Source: Balneolaceae bacterium (lineage in GTDB: Bacteria > Bacteroidota > Rhodothermia > Balneolales > Balneolaceae). Taken from it: a DNA stretch of 64,000 bases. The position numbers and the translations under genes are program-made. The stretch lies in NCBI GenBank assembly GCA_017795005.1, contig CP051242.1, positions 558,001-622,000 of the forward strand. Reading direction: 5' to 3'. Position 1 is the first letter of the stretch, and each line of letters opens with the position of its first letter. Of this stretch, positions 58,764-64,000 are shown one piece after another. Under the pieces are notes generated by a model that saw only the letters and a list, made by a program, of their open reading frames with translations, was not told where the DNA came from and did no database searches.

Positions 58764-59360
58764 ATGAAAGTATTTAAAAAATGGTGGCTTTACCCCTTGC
58801 TGGTATTAGTTACTTATTTAGTCGCATTTCCATTTTACTTCAGGAATCCGGAAGCACCTCTATTTTTTGAGGTATATTCCCGATTCAATGGCACGCTCGA
58901 GCACATGGCTATTGATAAAAATAAAGAGCGGTTGGTAGCTAATAATGATTCGATTATTGTCGGACGAGCTGCTCCCGATTTTACCTTGAATTCATTAGAA
59001 GGTGAAGAAATTACTTTATCCGAATTCAGAGGGAAAAAGGTGCTACTTACTTTCTGGGCCTCCTGGTGCCCTACCTGTAGAGCCGAGAACAGACATCTTG
59101 CTGAAATCTATTCCGAATACAAAGAAGAGGGATTTGAAATTCTGGGAGTCTCATTAGATCGAAGCAGAACAAATTGGTTTAAGGCAGTCGAAAAAGATGG
59201 AATAACCTGGCCTCAGGTTTCAGATTTAGAGGGAGTCGATTCTGAGGCTGCTATACTATATGGTGTTTACTCAACCCCAACTACTTTTTTGATTGATAGT
59301 AGTAGAGTGGTGATTGGGAAGGATATTTTTGCGGATGAACTGAAGAACTATCTACGGTAG
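58764..59360 (+). CDS. membrane-anchored TlpA/ResA-type thioredoxin
   Basis: 198 residues. One N-terminal membrane helix (about 6-26) and a periplasmic thioredoxin domain with active site W-A-S-W-C-P-T-C near residue 96 and cis-proline in Y-S-T-P-T-T. P-D-F-T-L-N-S-L-E-G-E-E is the usual TlpA beginning. It could keep periplasmic proteins or cytochrome c thiols reduced. Its end overlaps the convergent transposase gene by 13 nt. Confidence 0.9.
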   Translation: MKVFKKWWLYPLLVLVTYLVAFPFYFRNPEAPLFFEVYSRFNGTLEHMAIDKNKERLVANNDSIIVGRAAPDFTLNSLEGEEITLSEFRGKKVLLTFWASWCPTCRAENRHLAEIYSEYKEEGFEILGVSLDRSRTNWFKAVEKDGITWPQVSDLEGVDSEAAILYGVYSTPTTFLIDSSRVVIGKDIFADELKNYLR

Positions 59361-59938
59361 AATTTGTCCTCCATCCAATTTTCGGGATTAGTTTTGATGT
59401 ATTCAGAAATGCGCTGAAAGGATTCCTCATCACGAATGATATGATCGTGGTATCTGGGTTGCCATTTGAAATCAGCTCGAATTCTACGGGCATCTTTCGT
59501 TACCCCACTTTTAAATCCCCGAATAATCGATGCCAGGTTATTGGATTGTGGACCGAATTGATTTAATGAAGACTGTTTTGATGTTCGTGGAGGCGCAATA
59601 CTTTGCGCCTCATGGCTTGGTGTTTTTTCATTTTGAGACGCAAGGTGTTGCGTCTCCACGGGTTTATCGATTATGATAATCCCATGGATATGATTGGGCA
59701 TAACCACAAACTCTCCTAATTTTACATATGGGTGATAATTTGGAATATCATTCCAGCATTGATGTGCAATTCTACCCAACTCAGATAAATTCAGTGCTGC
59801 ATCTGATATCTCTCCAAAGAAATGCTCTCTATTTTGGGTGCAGATTGTTACAAAATATGCCCCATTCCAACCGTAATTCCAGGATTTCAACCGTGTCGTT
59901 TCAGTTCGGTATTTATTCCGGAATTTTGAATTCTTCAC
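59348..59938 (-). CDS. REP-associated tyrosine transposase (RayT, Y1 family)
   Basis: 196 residues. The HUH metal motif is in M-P-N-H-I-H-G-I-I-I (H-x-H) near residues 80-90, and the catalytic Tyr near residue 181 (R-I-S-E-Y-I-K-T-N-P). The N-terminal W-N-Y-G-W-N-G-A-Y-F-V-T-I-C-T is standard for RayT proteins, which nick and join DNA at REP hairpins. There is no flanking IS end; it is a domesticated-type single gene. Two REP-like palindromes lie inside its reading frame. The upstream membrane gene overlaps its start by four bases (ATGA). Confidence 0.92.
   Translation of the reverse strand: MKNSKFRNKYRTETTRLKSWNYGWNGAYFVTICTQNREHFFGEISDAALNLSELGRIAHQCWNDIPNYHPYVKLGEFVVMPNHIHGIIIIDKPVETQHLASQNEKTPSHEAQSIAPPRTSKQSSLNQFGPQSNNLASIIRGFKSGVTKDARRIRADFKWQPRYHDHIIRDEESFQRISEYIKTNPENWMEDKFYRR
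59587..59659. repeat. REP-like palindrome doublet inside the rayT reading frame
   Basis: Two palindromes of the same design: GAGGCGCAA-TACT-TTGCGCCTC (59590-59611) and GAGACGCAA-GGTG-TTGCGTCTC (59635-59656). Both have 9-bp stems and 4-base loops, and they differ only by one base-pair swap in the stem. The outer flanks GTG (59587-59589) and CAC (59657-59659) extend the symmetry, making a BIME-like pair. It stays in frame and codes for a hydrophilic loop (about residues 94-117) between the HUH motif and the rest of the transposase. Confidence 0.85.
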
Positions 59939-60351
59939 ATTTCGAAGATGTCAGGATTCAATTTAGATTTTAGTCCATACAAATCCTTTCTCATCGTAAT
60001 TATTAAGGCATTAAATGAAGATTGGTTTTTAGATTTTAATAATTCTTTCATTTTTTTAATTACTTCGTCTGAAGCATACAAAGACATGTTAACCCATTCA
60101 GCCTCTAATTCATTATAAAGTGCTTCTTTAGAAGTAATATTAGGTCTGTTAATAATTAACCTTGTATGTTCTTTTTCATAATTAATAAAAGCGTAGCATA
60201 ATAATAAAATAGATTTATACCTTTTTTCTTTGAGCTCCTGTTTAGCATCTGTTTTCTTCTTTCTAGAACTTATAAAGTAAGCTACTATCGCAGGGATTAT
60301 CCCACTAATTCCAATCGCGCCAAGAATCGCTAAAATTTGTTCAATGTTCAT
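59935..60351 (-). CDS. single-span membrane protein of unknown function, 138 aa
   Basis: One N-terminal membrane helix (about 7-27), then a basic K-K-K-T-D-A-K-Q-E-L-K-E-K-R stretch and a helical soluble region (Y-A-F-I-N-Y-E-K-E-H, E-A-E-W-V-N-M-S-L-Y-A-S). No family recognised. It starts 4 nt after the receiver-oxidoreductase stop and overlaps rayT by ATGA, so it is tied to both by translation. Similar single-span helical proteins occur near mobile DNA, but the link is a guess. Confidence 0.65.
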   Translation of the reverse strand: MNIEQILAILGAIGISGIIPAIVAYFISSRKKKTDAKQELKEKRYKSILLLCYAFINYEKEHTRLIINRPNITSKEALYNELEAEWVNMSLYASDEVIKKMKELLKSKNQSSFNALIITMRKDLYGLKSKLNPDIFEM

Positions 60352-60355
60352 ATCT

Positions 60356-62023
60356 CTAGAGGTTTGAATCCGCCAAATACTCGTGGACGTATTTAATACT
60401 CATTGCTCCTTCGCCTACTGCTGAGGCAACCCGATTCATAGCTCCTGCACGAACATCTCCAGCTGCAAAAATTCCGGGAGAACATGTTTCTAATAAGAAT
60501 GGTTGTCGTTCCAGTTGCCAGACTTTCTTATATTCGTCATAGCGCATTAACTCTTTTCCGGTCTCCAGATAACCCCGTTCATTTTTTATGATATCAGATT
60601 CAATCCATTCGGTATAGGGTTTAGCGCCAATAAAAATGAATAATCCATCAGCTTCAACATCTCTGAAGGAATCATCTTTGGAATCTTTGAGAACTAGCTT
60701 TTGAAGCTTTCCGTCTCCACATGCTTCTTCGACTTCTGTAAAGGGTAGTAAATCAATATTCTCAGTTTTGTCAATTTGATCAATTAGATAAGATGACATC
60801 GTTGCTACAAGTGATTCCCTTCTAACTGCGATATAAACATTTTTAGCAAAGGAGGATAGGTACATCGCTGCTTGTCCGGCTGAATTACCTCCTCCAACGA
60901 TATACACCTGCTTATCTTTGAATGCGTGTGCTTCGGTCATTGCAGCACCATAGTAAATCCCGGCACCAGTAAAATCTGAAACACCTTTACTTTCCAGTTT
61001 TCGATAATTGACCCCAGTTGTAACTACAACAGCTTTAGCGTTTACAGAACTTCCATCTGATAATGAAAGCGTTTTGTATTGATCCTTAACTTCGATACTT
61101 ACCACTTCTTGTGGTGATAAAAACTCAACACCAAATCGGGTTGCCTGGGTAATTGCTCTTCTAGCAAGATCAGAACCACTCAATCCATTAGGGAAACCAA
61201 GATAGTTTTCGATTCTGGAACTCGTTCCTGCTTGGCCTCCCGGGGCTCTTTTCTCGATGAGTAGTGTTTTTAATCCTTCGGAACCTCCATATACAGCAGC
61301 AGCAAGTCCGGCTGGTCCGGCACCAATAATCACTACGTCATAAATATTCTCTGAAGCTGAAGGATTCCTTCCAAGCTTGTTAGCAATTTCAAGTGGGGTT
61401 GGCTCGGTTATATGACTTCCATCCTCAAAGAAAATCGCCGGCAGACTTGAGCCATCCAGATTATGCTCTCCTATAAGTTCATTCGCCTTTTCACTTCCTT
61501 CAACATCGAGCCATCGGTAGGGGATAAGATTTCCAGACAGATAATCTTTGATTGTGTGGGATTTTGGAGAATATTGATATCCCACCAGTTTTATTCCGTG
61601 GAATTCAGGTTTGAAATTCGCCTGCCATTCATCGAGTAAGTCGTCTAGTACCGGGAATAATTTCTCTTCCGGTGGATCCCAGGGTTTTAACAAATAGTAA
61701 TCCAGCTGCACATCATTGATTGCTTTGATGGCTGCATCAGTATCGGAATAGGCAGTAAGAAGCACACGTTTTGCTTCCGGAAAAATCTTTTTTGCTTTCT
61801 CAAGGAATTCCACCCCAATCATCTCCGGCATTCTTTGGTCAGAAAGGAAAAGAGCAACTGTTTCGCCTTGTTTTTTTAGCTCAGGTAAAGTTTCGAGCGC
61901 TTCTTTAGGGGAGTTGGTACTCAATATCCGGAAGTCTGCTCGATATTTTCCTCTAAGGTCTCTTTGAATCGCCCGAAGAACCTGCGGATCGTCATCAATA
62001 GCAAATAATATTGGTTTGTTCAT
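60356..62023 (-). CDS. receiver / glutaredoxin-like / thioredoxin reductase-like fusion lacking dithiol motifs
   Basis: 555 residues in three parts. The receiver domain (1-130) has D10-D11-D12, phospho-acceptor D62 and K113. A glutaredoxin/thioredoxin-like domain (about 143-218) has S-P-K-S at 152-155 where redox-active members have CxxC, then I-P-Y-R-W-L-D-V-E and L-P-A-I-F-F-E-D-G. A thioredoxin-reductase-like FAD/NAD(P)H domain (225-550) has G-A-G-P-A-G (234-239), G-G-G-N-S-A-G and the A-G-D-V-R FAD motif. The CAxCDG active site is replaced around 359-365 (Y-G-A-A-M-T-E). Only two cysteines remain in the whole protein. It may be a phosphorylation-controlled flavin enzyme or a redox sensor (inference). 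Confidence 0.9.
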   Translation of the reverse strand: MNKPILFAIDDDPQVLRAIQRDLRGKYRADFRILSTNSPKEALETLPELKKQGETVALFLSDQRMPEMIGVEFLEKAKKIFPEAKRVLLTAYSDTDAAIKAINDVQLDYYLLKPWDPPEEKLFPVLDDLLDEWQANFKPEFHGIKLVGYQYSPKSHTIKDYLSGNLIPYRWLDVEGSEKANELIGEHNLDGSSLPAIFFEDGSHITEPTPLEIANKLGRNPSASENIYDVVIIGAGPAGLAAAVYGGSEGLKTLLIEKRAPGGQAGTSSRIENYLGFPNGLSGSDLARRAITQATRFGVEFLSPQEVVSIEVKDQYKTLSLSDGSSVNAKAVVVTTGVNYRKLESKGVSDFTGAGIYYGAAMTEAHAFKDKQVYIVGGGNSAGQAAMYLSSFAKNVYIAVRRESLVATMSSYLIDQIDKTENIDLLPFTEVEEACGDGKLQKLVLKDSKDDSFRDVEADGLFIFIGAKPYTEWIESDIIKNERGYLETGKELMRYDEYKKVWQLERQPFLLETCSPGIFAAGDVRAGAMNRVASAVGEGAMSIKYVHEYLADSNL

Positions 62024-62047
62024 CCCTTTGGGAATTTTGAATGCTGA

Positions 62048-62174
62048 ATTATGGATTTTGAATTCTTTTTGTCACTTCGAATGAATATGAGAAGTCTAAA
62101 AAATAAACTTTGTTTACTTGCTCTTTAGATATCTCGCTTCGCTCGATATGACAAAGTAATTCAAAATCCATAAT
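62048..62174. repeat. AT-rich inverted-repeat element between regulator and kinase genes
   Basis: Perfect 17-bp inverted arms ATTATGGATTTTGAATT (62048-62064) and AATTCAAAATCCATAAT (62158-62174), extended imperfectly by TTTTTGTCA / TGACAAAG. Inside is a TATCGAGCGAAGCGAGATATC palindrome in reverse, a motif I know as a common dispersed repeat. It lies in the gap between the kinase and the receiver fusion, with no reading frame. Confidence 0.7.
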
Positions 62175-62189
62175 CCAAAATTTAGAATT

Positions 62190-63578
62190 TTAAGAAAGTG
62201 GAAAAGTCAGTTCAAAGGTAGTATCTCCTGGTTTAGATTCAACCTCTATTCTCCCGCCATGTTTTTCGATAATTTTATGAACTACATCGAGTCCCAGTCC
62301 AGTTCCTTGTCCTACATCTTTGGTTGTAAAAAAAGGCTCAAAAATTCTATTCTGAATATCTTCAGGAATCCCGAATCCGTTATCTCTGAAGTACATGACT
62401 AAATTGCCGTTTTTAGATTCAACCTCAACCGATACTTTTCCTCCTTCATTTACGGCATCAATGGCATTATCTAATAAATTAGTCCAGACCTGATTTAATT
62501 CACTTACATAACCACAAAATTCAGGAAGATCTTTAGGTACATCAAATTCAATGTTAACCTGCTTTTGCTTCGACTTATGGTTTAACATGGTAATAGTACT
62601 TTTCAGCACTTTAGGTAGATCGATCGCTTCTTTGTCTGAACCCCGATCCATATGAGAATAGGTTTTTACTGAAGAAACTAAATCTGAAATTCTGGTTGCC
62701 GAATCTTCAATTTCCTCAACCATTTTTTCAGTAGTCAAAACATCTTCAACCCAACCTAATACAGCCGGAAGAAACTCTTCAGTTACATGTGAATTCACAA
62801 ATTCCAGATCATCCACATTAAAGCAATACTCTGCGAAGGTTTCTGCATATTCAAAGCCCTGATCTACTCCATGGTCTTCCATCCAGTCTGTGAGCTCATC
62901 TTCCAGATTCGTGCGGTCCATCAAACTTTGTTGATTAGTACTTCCCTTCTCTGCTTTACGAAACACGAGTTCGTTCACTGCATCAACTTGTTCTTCAGTT
63001 AATCGGATACTCATCACTGCTTTGAATTTATCGGGAGTAGACCGAAGTCTTTTTCTCAATTCTGTTGCTCCACGAACCATAGCCGATGCTGGATTATTTA
63101 ATTCATGAGCGAGACCGGCGGAAAGTTTTCCCAGTGCCATCAACTTTTCATTCTGCTGCTGAACCGTAGTGAATCGACGGATTCTGTCAGACATGGAGTG
63201 TACGAATACTTCGATGAGTTCATACCTTTTTGAAATTTCCGGAAATACATTTTCTTCAGTTCTGAGAATAGCAGTTTTTTCGACAGCGGTTAGATATGCC
63301 AGCGTCGATTGCATTCTTGAAAATGGCAGTTTTCCCGAGATATCTCCCTTTTCAAAATTACCGATGTTCTGGAATTGATTCCCTCTTTTCAATCTAATAC
63401 TGATCACTCCATCCAGAATAATCAACATTCTAGTCATATCATCTCCTGGTTGAACAACATTCTCACCAGGTTCATATTCAAGGTAGGTTGAATTCTCAAC
63501 TAACCAGCTTAAATGCTCTTCAGGGACTTCTAAAAAAGGGTCAAGTTGTTTTAATTGAGAAACAATTTTTTCCGTCAT
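62190..63578 (-). CDS. histidine kinase with N-terminal cyclic-nucleotide-binding domain
   Basis: 462 residues, no membrane helix, so cytoplasmic. Residues about 12-125 match the CNB/CRP fold (Y-E-P-G-E-N-V-V-Q-P-G-D-D, L-I-I-L-D-G-V-I-S). The phospho-acceptor is H158 in A-G-L-A-H-E-L-N-N-P. The ATPase domain has W-T-N-L-L-D-N-A-I-D-A-V, D-N-G-F-G-I-P and G-T-G-L-G-L-D. A long insert (about 180-290) separates the H-box from the rest. Its start overlaps the zinc-finger gene by ATGA. The receiver fusion downstream is the probable partner. Confidence 0.93.
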   Translation of the reverse strand: MTEKIVSQLKQLDPFLEVPEEHLSWLVENSTYLEYEPGENVVQPGDDMTRMLIILDGVISIRLKRGNQFQNIGNFEKGDISGKLPFSRMQSTLAYLTAVEKTAILRTEENVFPEISKRYELIEVFVHSMSDRIRRFTTVQQQNEKLMALGKLSAGLAHELNNPASAMVRGATELRKRLRSTPDKFKAVMSIRLTEEQVDAVNELVFRKAEKGSTNQQSLMDRTNLEDELTDWMEDHGVDQGFEYAETFAEYCFNVDDLEFVNSHVTEEFLPAVLGWVEDVLTTEKMVEEIEDSATRISDLVSSVKTYSHMDRGSDKEAIDLPKVLKSTITMLNHKSKQKQVNIEFDVPKDLPEFCGYVSELNQVWTNLLDNAIDAVNEGGKVSVEVESKNGNLVMYFRDNGFGIPEDIQNRIFEPFFTTKDVGQGTGLGLDVVHKIIEKHGGRIEVESKPGDTTFELTFPLS

Positions 63579-63832
63579 GATTCTAGCATTTCATTATGAA
63601 CGTAACAATAACGCCAGCTTTCGCCTGGTTCTACAGATCTTATGATTGGATGATCATTTCTCATGTAATGTTTTCGGGCATGTTTATTCTTTGAAGAATC
63701 ACAACAACCGACATAGCCACAACTCATACACATTCGGAGATGCACCCATGTATCGCCCTGTTGGACACAAGTTTCACATTCGTTACCAGAAGGCTCTGTA
63801 ATTTCAATCATTGATTGGTGACTGCAAGCCAT
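63575..63832 (-). CDS. UBP-type zinc-finger protein
   Basis: 85 residues, almost all one ZnF_UBP domain. Ligands: C3, H5, C19, C22, C35, C38, C43 or C44, H51, H55 and H61, in the order C-S-H ... E-C-E-T-C ... C-M-S-C-G-Y-V-G-C-C ... H-A-R-K-H ... N-D-H-P. In eukaryotes this domain binds the free C-terminus of ubiquitin. Bacteria without ubiquitin carry it near antiporters and redox proteins, with an unknown ligand. GGAG lies 6-7 bases before the ATG, and the kinase start overlaps its stop by 4 nt. Confidence 0.9.
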   Translation of the reverse strand: MACSHQSMIEITEPSGNECETCVQQGDTWVHLRMCMSCGYVGCCDSSKNKHARKHYMRNDHPIIRSVEPGESWRYCYVHNEMLES

Positions 63833-63841
63833 ATTAATCTC

Positions 63842-64000
63842 CTAATTAACATTTTGAACTACTTTGTGCATATCAAGATCCAGTGACATTGATCCATCTA
63901 TATCATCACTAATACTAATTTCAGCTAGTTTTCTACCTGCCTGAATCAAAGGTAAACAAACAGCATTAGCACCTGCTTCTTTTAACGCCTGGTGTTCTTC
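63842..64000 (-). CDS. C-terminal end of a probable Kef/TrkA-type transport protein, cut by the window edge
   Basis: 52 residues to TAG at 63842, open at the right edge. The visible E-E-H-Q-A-L-K-E-A-G-A-N-A-V-C-L-P-L, then A-G-R-K-L-A-E-I, resembles the end of a TrkA-N/RCK NAD-binding domain as in Kef-type cation antiporters. It stops 9 nt before the zinc-finger ATG, so it is the upstream gene of that operon. The family call rests on a short stretch. Confidence 0.5.
   Translation of the reverse strand, partial: EEHQALKEAGANAVCLPLIQAGRKLAEISISDDIDGSMSLDLDMHKVVQNVN

Follow-up and report, generated by a model that had tools for sequence, protein, structure and literature searches.

A candidate quinone-stress operon in Balneolaceae combining a K+/H+ antiporter, a UBP-type zinc finger and a kinase-flavoprotein pair

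Several described systems resemble parts of the locus analyzed here, a six-gene operon of a Balneolaceae bacterium (GCA_017795005.1) encoding an antiporter, a zinc finger of the UBP family (zf-UBP), a histidine kinase and a flavoprotein with a receiver (REC) domain, with MhqO-like and MhqD-like genes as its first two. KefF, the activator of Kef antiporters, is a flavin quinone reductase, and the residues SST-QD-K307 form the signature of K+-selective electroneutral exchange (PMC10224563), while in S. aureus mhqE, coding for a dioxygenase, and mhqD, coding for a phospholipase/carboxylesterase, belong to the quinone-induced mhqRED operon (PMC6798810). For zf-UBP domains, an arginine is needed for ubiquitin binding (USP5 R221, HDAC6 R1155), with R221K weakening binding about 40-fold (PMC3247260, PMC13292185); the fingers of USP20 and USP33 show no measurable binding to the ubiquitin C-terminus and bind short internal [KR]xxL[NED] motifs via acidic residues (PMC13376213).

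The window, meaning the whole analyzed stretch of 64,000 nucleotides (CP051242.1, positions 558,001 to 622,000, from a 3.75-Mb genome in a single contig), holds ZF-UBP, a thioredoxin reductase (TrxR)-like protein and a cyclic-nucleotide-binding (CNB) domain in one neighborhood. A 2011 paper by Burroughs, Iyer and Aravind (Mol Biosyst 7:2261) reportedly proposed that bacterial ZF-UBP belongs to a cyclic nucleotide-dependent redox signaling system, and the general idea is thus already published. We found no experiments on the bacterial zf-UBP/flavoprotein system in the literature searched. What the present analysis adds, some of which may be in the 2011 paper, is the six-gene operon, antiporter-UBP fusions in the class, a cysteine-free flavoprotein family, an Arg-to-Asp change in the finger, a degenerate CNB domain in the kinase and a count of REC/CNB swaps.

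Gene order and conservation of the operon

Read 5′ to 3′, the six same-strand genes encode an MhqO-type dioxygenase, an MhqD-type esterase, a CPA2 antiporter, zf-UBP, a CNB-histidine kinase and a flavoprotein made up of REC, glutaredoxin (Grx)-like and TrxR-like parts (REC-Grx-TrxR). The window holds only the last four, all on the minus strand; the first two lie outside it and are given in the coordinates of the extended locus, L002:

L002 13073-12096, same strand as the operon: MhqO-like ring-cleaving dioxygenase gene, upstream of the MhqD-like gene
L002 12094-11447, same strand as the operon: MhqD-like esterase gene, upstream of the antiporter gene
63842-64000, minus strand: 3′ end of the CPA2 K+/H+ antiporter gene, Kef/YbaL-type, Na_H_Exchanger plus TrkA_N
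63575-63832, minus strand: zf-UBP, stand-alone zinc finger of 85 amino acids, PDB relative 2ida (4e-25), GCCD replacing GCGR
62190-63578, minus strand: soluble CNB-HisKA-HATPase histidine kinase of 462 amino acids, H158, degenerate cyclic-nucleotide pocket
60356-62023, minus strand: flavoprotein of 555 amino acids with REC (1-130), Grx-like (137-220) and TrxR-like FAD/NADPH (225-555) parts, the Grx-like part cysteine-free, no CxxC

The antiporter gene spans 63842-65428 in extended coordinates (L002 9843-11429, 528 amino acids), with its last ~53 codons in the window. Gaps of 1 nt and 17 nt separate the MhqO-like, MhqD-like and antiporter genes in turn, followed by 9 nt between antiporter and zf-UBP, an ATGA overlap between zf-UBP and kinase, and 166 nt between kinase and flavoprotein; the four same-strand genes, the 9-nt gap and the overlap had been recorded in a preliminary description of the window and exist where it placed them.

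That description also took the genes to be one system, and a co-occurrence survey, set beforehand as a possible refutation, found them linked beyond close relatives with their order and fusions kept, which supports the view that the genes form one system. Among 59 relatives, zf-UBP occurs in 8, the home genome included; six of the other seven keep the order antiporter-UBP-kinase-REC-TrxR, and five have MhqO/MhqD just upstream. Across 196 genomes of the class Rhodothermia, zf-UBP and REC-TrxR are each present in 33 and together in 27, compared with about 5.6 expected if they were independent, and the two lie less than 5 kb apart in about 22 class genomes of 3-6 Mb, a count made by hand from printed coordinates. 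A locus from another Rhodothermia family (L166) has the same six functions together, with zf-UBP fused to the antiporter; L160 and L173 resemble it but have no kinase nearby, and L167-L171 are antiporter and kinase/flavoprotein loci without UBP. Outside the phylum, the REC-TrxR, CNB-kinase and UBP genes are contiguous in Acidobacteria, Betaproteobacteria, Devosia, Ktedonobacter and Streptomyces, and UBP, a DsbA-like gene, MhqO and MhqD are contiguous in Ktedonobacter (Chloroflexota, L038).

The MhqO-like protein has 'ring-cleaving dioxygenase mhqO' as its best PDB match (1.6e-70, aligned over the whole length), and its neighbor belongs with the MhqD-like phospholipases/carboxylesterases. MhqO adjoins the cluster in about 17 of the 33 REC-TrxR genomes (listed coordinates). 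No MarR-type MhqR repressor was recognized by eye among open reading frames of at least 90 amino acids in L002 6357-18792, where the neighbors were not given a profile scan. In the source genome BshC, at 462 bits, exceeds its curated cut-off of 265.8, whereas the match to GshB (glutathione synthetase), at 76 bits, stays under its own cut-off of 299; by these genes the host probably uses bacillithiol and not glutathione.

The flavoprotein and its kinase

The flavoprotein matches Response_reg (6e-14) and Pyr_redox_2 (3e-38) in Pfam, and its predicted structure (m6ee296e2b3af, mean pLDDT 84.8) comprises a receiver, a beta-alpha-beta-alpha-beta-beta-alpha domain (144-216) and a TrxR fold. With this model as Foldseek query, AhpF (4xvg) was the top match over the full length, and thioredoxin reductases matched the C-terminal part with a TM of 0.9. 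The dinucleotide motifs for FAD and NAD(P)H are intact (G234/G236/G239 and G377/N380-G383, without variation in 31 diverse sequences). None of 70 homologs has a CxxC, whether in the NADPH or in the Grx-like domain; the NADPH-domain site reads YYGAAMTEA in the window flavoprotein, compared with CATC in an ordinary TrxR (L068), and the Grx-like site reads SPKS. With no such cysteine pair, the sequence excludes the usual disulfide chemistry, and the reading as a thioredoxin reductase is rejected; the score for TIGR01292 (the TrxR equivalog), 245 bits, is also under the cut-off of 343. The labels 'flavin reductase' and 'TrxR' given earlier are imprecise and names only, there being no redox cysteine pair, and the annotation 'fused response regulator/thioredoxin reductase' is probably wrong for this widespread family. 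The role that remains would be to pass a hydride to quinone or another small acceptor, or a non-catalytic one; judged by its neighbor genes and the analogy with KefF, the protein is most likely an NAD(P)H quinone reductase and/or an antiporter-activating subunit.

The kinase matches HATPase_c (1e-27) and cNMP_binding (3e-8), and no transmembrane segment was noted in it by eye. The residues of a two-component pair are present on both sides: the HATPase domain and the HisKA histidine in the kinase, and in the receiver the acidic pocket (D10-12), phosphoacceptor (D62), Thr (T90) and Lys (K113), all four invariant. H158 and D62, between which phosphotransfer had been suggested, are indeed the H-box histidine, kept in 48 of 48 aligned kinases, and the receiver aspartate. 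With a complete H-box and receiver, and with the kinase adjoining REC-Grx-TrxR in 30 of 36 loci, the earlier idea that a cytoplasmic CNB kinase acts on a flavoprotein and not on a DNA-binding regulator appears the most plausible.

When the CNB domain of the kinase is aligned with that of PKA RII, the canonical Gly-Glu becomes GK, GV, GM or GR, the following PRAA becomes STLA and the phosphate-cassette Arg is Leu in the window kinase, while a conserved LPFSRM is present instead in the kinase CNBs. Since Gly-Glu and Arg are lost, a cyclic nucleotide is not the obvious ligand of the kinase-borne domain. The canonical Gly-Glu is kept in most CNB-TrxR homologs, that is, Grx-TrxR proteins in which a CNB-like region replaces REC at the N-terminus. 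A kinase was found near these in 0 of 22 loci (a count that, like the 30 of 36 above, takes in loci with 3 kb or more on both sides) and zf-UBP in 14 of 22. This swap is as expected if the chain from CNB through kinase and REC to flavoprotein is the long form of one running from CNB directly to flavoprotein. Separately, the short HisKA match of the kinase covers residues 149-179, and a span of ~100 residues follows before residue ~283, where the match of other kinase families starts; the corresponding positions 62700-63060 of the window (kinase residues ~180-283) may hold an insertion in the dimerization domain.

The zinc finger, the antiporter and their surroundings

The finger matches zf-UBP in Pfam (8e-13, 48.9 bits vs a cut-off of 22.7), and its structure-database matches were 2ida and USP16 (3e-4). 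Zinc-ligand Cys/His residues are invariant in the bacterial fingers, which have an extra adjacent pair, C43-C44. GCGR of USP16 aligns with GCCD, placing an Asp at the position of the Arg that contacts the ubiquitin tail, and an Asp stands at the USP5 R221 position in 115 of 116 bacterial fingers; 80 loci of this set were fetched with two patterns, one of them GCCD, so that subset is biased, and the rest were not so fetched. Fingers found by profile or via TrxR loci also carry the GCCD Asp. With the Arg replaced, ubiquitin-tail binding is rejected as the default for the bacterial finger, and the earlier suggestion that it may bind a protein C-terminus is not supported for a ubiquitin-like mode of binding. 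A Pfam search for ubiquitin gave no match, but none of the control genomes gave one either, and it is uninformative. The USP20 and USP33 fingers offer a precedent for regarding the bacterial zf-UBP as a possible peptide or protein adaptor, and because the finger is fused to the antiporter elsewhere, the antiporter is its likely partner. When a Kef-UBP fusion was modeled with AlphaFold, pLDDT stayed below ~55 in the UBP part, too low to show how it packs on the antiporter. A second zf-UBP association is with DUF5996: its gene lies beside zf-UBP in some 20 of the 80 loci (among them L022, L024, L025, L029, L036, L039, L044, L047, L050, L053, L088 and L092), most of these being from Acidobacteria.

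The antiporter matches Na_H_Exchanger (1e-35) and TrkA_N (4e-20) and aligns with KefC, with SST, QD and the Lys equivalent to K307 kept. It ends ~35 residues after TrkA_N (the KTN domain), without the C-terminal extension needed for a complete glutathione site, and by this architecture it is RosB/YbaL-like. Antiporter-TrkA_N-(TrkA_C)-UBP fusions are found in other families of the class, adjoining CNB-kinase and REC-TrxR, and antiporter-UBP fusions also in Actinobacteria, Chloroflexota and Phycisphaerae. Because the finger forms the C-terminal end of the antiporter in many genomes, the case for the antiporter as part of the pathway is stronger than first guessed. In L164 (6216-8594) and L171 (9241-11607), Kef-type antiporters that carry no fused finger have a glutaredoxin domain at their end, with one cysteine in it (CPLT / CALT), and the antiporter of L169 has a comparable C-terminal stretch that Pfam does not match. 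DsbA-like proteins with CPYS replacing CPYC are encoded between the antiporter and UBP/kinase genes in L017 (9471-10025), L010 (8445-8969), L012 (8636-9160), L167 (11254-11778) and L168 (6478-7050), and in Ktedonobacter the DsbA-like protein encoded next to UBP (L038 10264-10893) has CPYT.

The spacer between kinase and flavoprotein genes contains one further element:

62127-62151, minus strand: REP-like palindrome TCATATCGAGCGAAGCGAGATATCT, inside the 166-nt spacer

The pattern has 6 exact copies genome-wide, compared with 0 for a reversed control, and the spacer looks inserted, as the two genes overlap or nearly abut in some relatives. Downstream, a possible REP-associated tyrosine transposase lies at 59348-59938 (weak Y1_Tnp match, 19.8 bits vs a cut-off of 23), with a 138-residue open reading frame of no known family at 59935-60351 between it and the flavoprotein gene. 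A promoter and terminator scan of the locus gave signals no better than in shuffled sequence.

Interpretation and comparison with known systems

We read the locus as an electrophile (quinone) stress operon with kinase-to-REC control of an antiporter-linked flavoprotein and zf-UBP as adaptor, and give this reading a probability of about 0.45. In the steps that we infer, MhqO and MhqD would destroy hydroquinone-type compounds, and the antiporter would swap K+ for H+, acidifying the cytosol as Kef does. The NAD(P)H flavoprotein would serve as quinone reductase and/or antiporter-activating subunit, KefF-like in role, not fold, while the soluble kinase would sense a cytosolic signal and phosphorylate D62, switching the activity or docking of the flavoprotein. 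The finger would tie the flavoprotein/kinase side to the cytosolic domain of the antiporter; this adaptor role would explain its fusion to the C-terminus of that domain in other families. A bolder version, in which a thiol-free flavoprotein response regulator gates the K+/H+ antiporter directly via the repurposed finger, as a Kef-like electrophile response for glutathione-free bacteria, strikes us as unlikely.

Several observations weigh against the quinone-stress reading. The RosB/YbaL-like group has no demonstrated electrophile response (PMC10224563). MhqO homologs, present in 141 of 196 genomes, are common in the class, and within the sampled class they are linked to the cluster mainly in Balneolaceae and one other family (f16). 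Of 80 multi-phylum UBP loci, 53 are without any searched partner, 23 of the 80 being short. The CNB-TrxR proteins are one clade, with the REC/CNB split a single deep event in the tree; the 58 loci are not independent, and the Fisher value of 7e-11 for the swap, which ignores kinship, is not independent evidence. The locus may instead serve general redox or oxidative-stress signaling, with a flavoprotein that reports the NAD(P)H state or oxidizes NAD(P)H with O2, an antiporter for ion/pH homeostasis, and MhqO/MhqD as passengers in Balneolaceae. That account, possible but on the doubtful side, fits the absence of MhqO/MhqD and antiporter from most REC-TrxR/CNB-kinase/UBP loci outside Rhodothermia, the general frequency of MhqO and the reported 2011 redox signaling proposal; it sits poorly with the recurrence of MhqO/MhqD linkage in f1, f16 and Chloroflexota (L038) and of the antiporter-UBP fusion in several phyla.

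The finger could also be the sensor itself, with electrophiles alkylating its Cys/His zinc sites so that zinc is released and antiporter and kinase are gated. The invariant Cys/His, C43-C44 included, would suit this, as would the fusion at the antiporter C-terminus, where KefC bears its glutathione-binding extension, and glutathione gating is unlikely because the host has no clear GshB; however, zinc-site cysteines are expected in any zf-UBP, and L167-L171 have the antiporter and kinase/flavoprotein loci without UBP, and we regard a sensor role as improbable. About as improbable, in our judgment, is a thioredoxin-type disulfide relay, with a DsbA-like or Grx thiol partner that is reduced by the flavoprotein and controls the antiporter. 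The DsbA-like gene that many Balneolaceae have between the antiporter gene and that for UBP or the kinase, the glutaredoxin domain ending some antiporters and the AhpF/TrxR fold all point that way, but CxxC is missing from 70 of 70 homologs when the true TrxR of L068 has CATC, the DsbA-like motif is CPYS/CPYT and the antiporter Grx motif C-x-L-T, and the TrxR score falls short (245 vs 343).

If the quinone-stress reading is true, it would provide a function for bacterial zf-UBP domains without ubiquitin, a physiological setting (electrophile/quinone stress plus K+/H+ exchange) for a widespread flavoprotein family, and, for organisms that use bacillithiol, a means of protection resembling Kef. 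The natural antiporter-UBP fusions make the physical partnership directly testable.

The nearest described systems each share a part of this arrangement. Like KefC-KefF, it sets a CPA2 antiporter with a KTN domain and the SST-QD-K signature beside an NAD(P)H flavoprotein, but the antiporter is without the glutathione-binding C-terminal extension, the flavoprotein has a TrxR fold with a receiver in place of an NQO fold (no NQO-type gene for a KefF/KefG-like subunit is in the operon), and zf-UBP and kinase have no Kef counterpart. The mhqRED/mhqED operons of Firmicutes likewise have an MhqO/MhqE-type dioxygenase adjoining an MhqD-type esterase, whereas here no adjacent MhqR was seen by eye and the pair is linked to a two-component flavoprotein and an antiporter. 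Thioredoxin reductase and AhpF share the FAD and NAD(P)H domains, and AhpF the order of a Trx fold followed by TrxR, but the present flavoprotein lacks CxxC in either place and has an N-terminal receiver. In the USP20/USP33 fingers, as here, the ubiquitin-tail pocket is not used in the usual way and pocket residues are acidic, although the bacterial finger is a separate subfamily. Lastly, the ZF-UBP system of 2011 reportedly also places ZF-UBP near a TrxR-like protein and a CNB domain, independent of ubiquitin; here the CNB domain is on a histidine kinase and has a degenerate pocket, the TrxR-like protein carries a receiver and is without redox cysteines, and the operon adds the antiporter and MhqO/MhqD.

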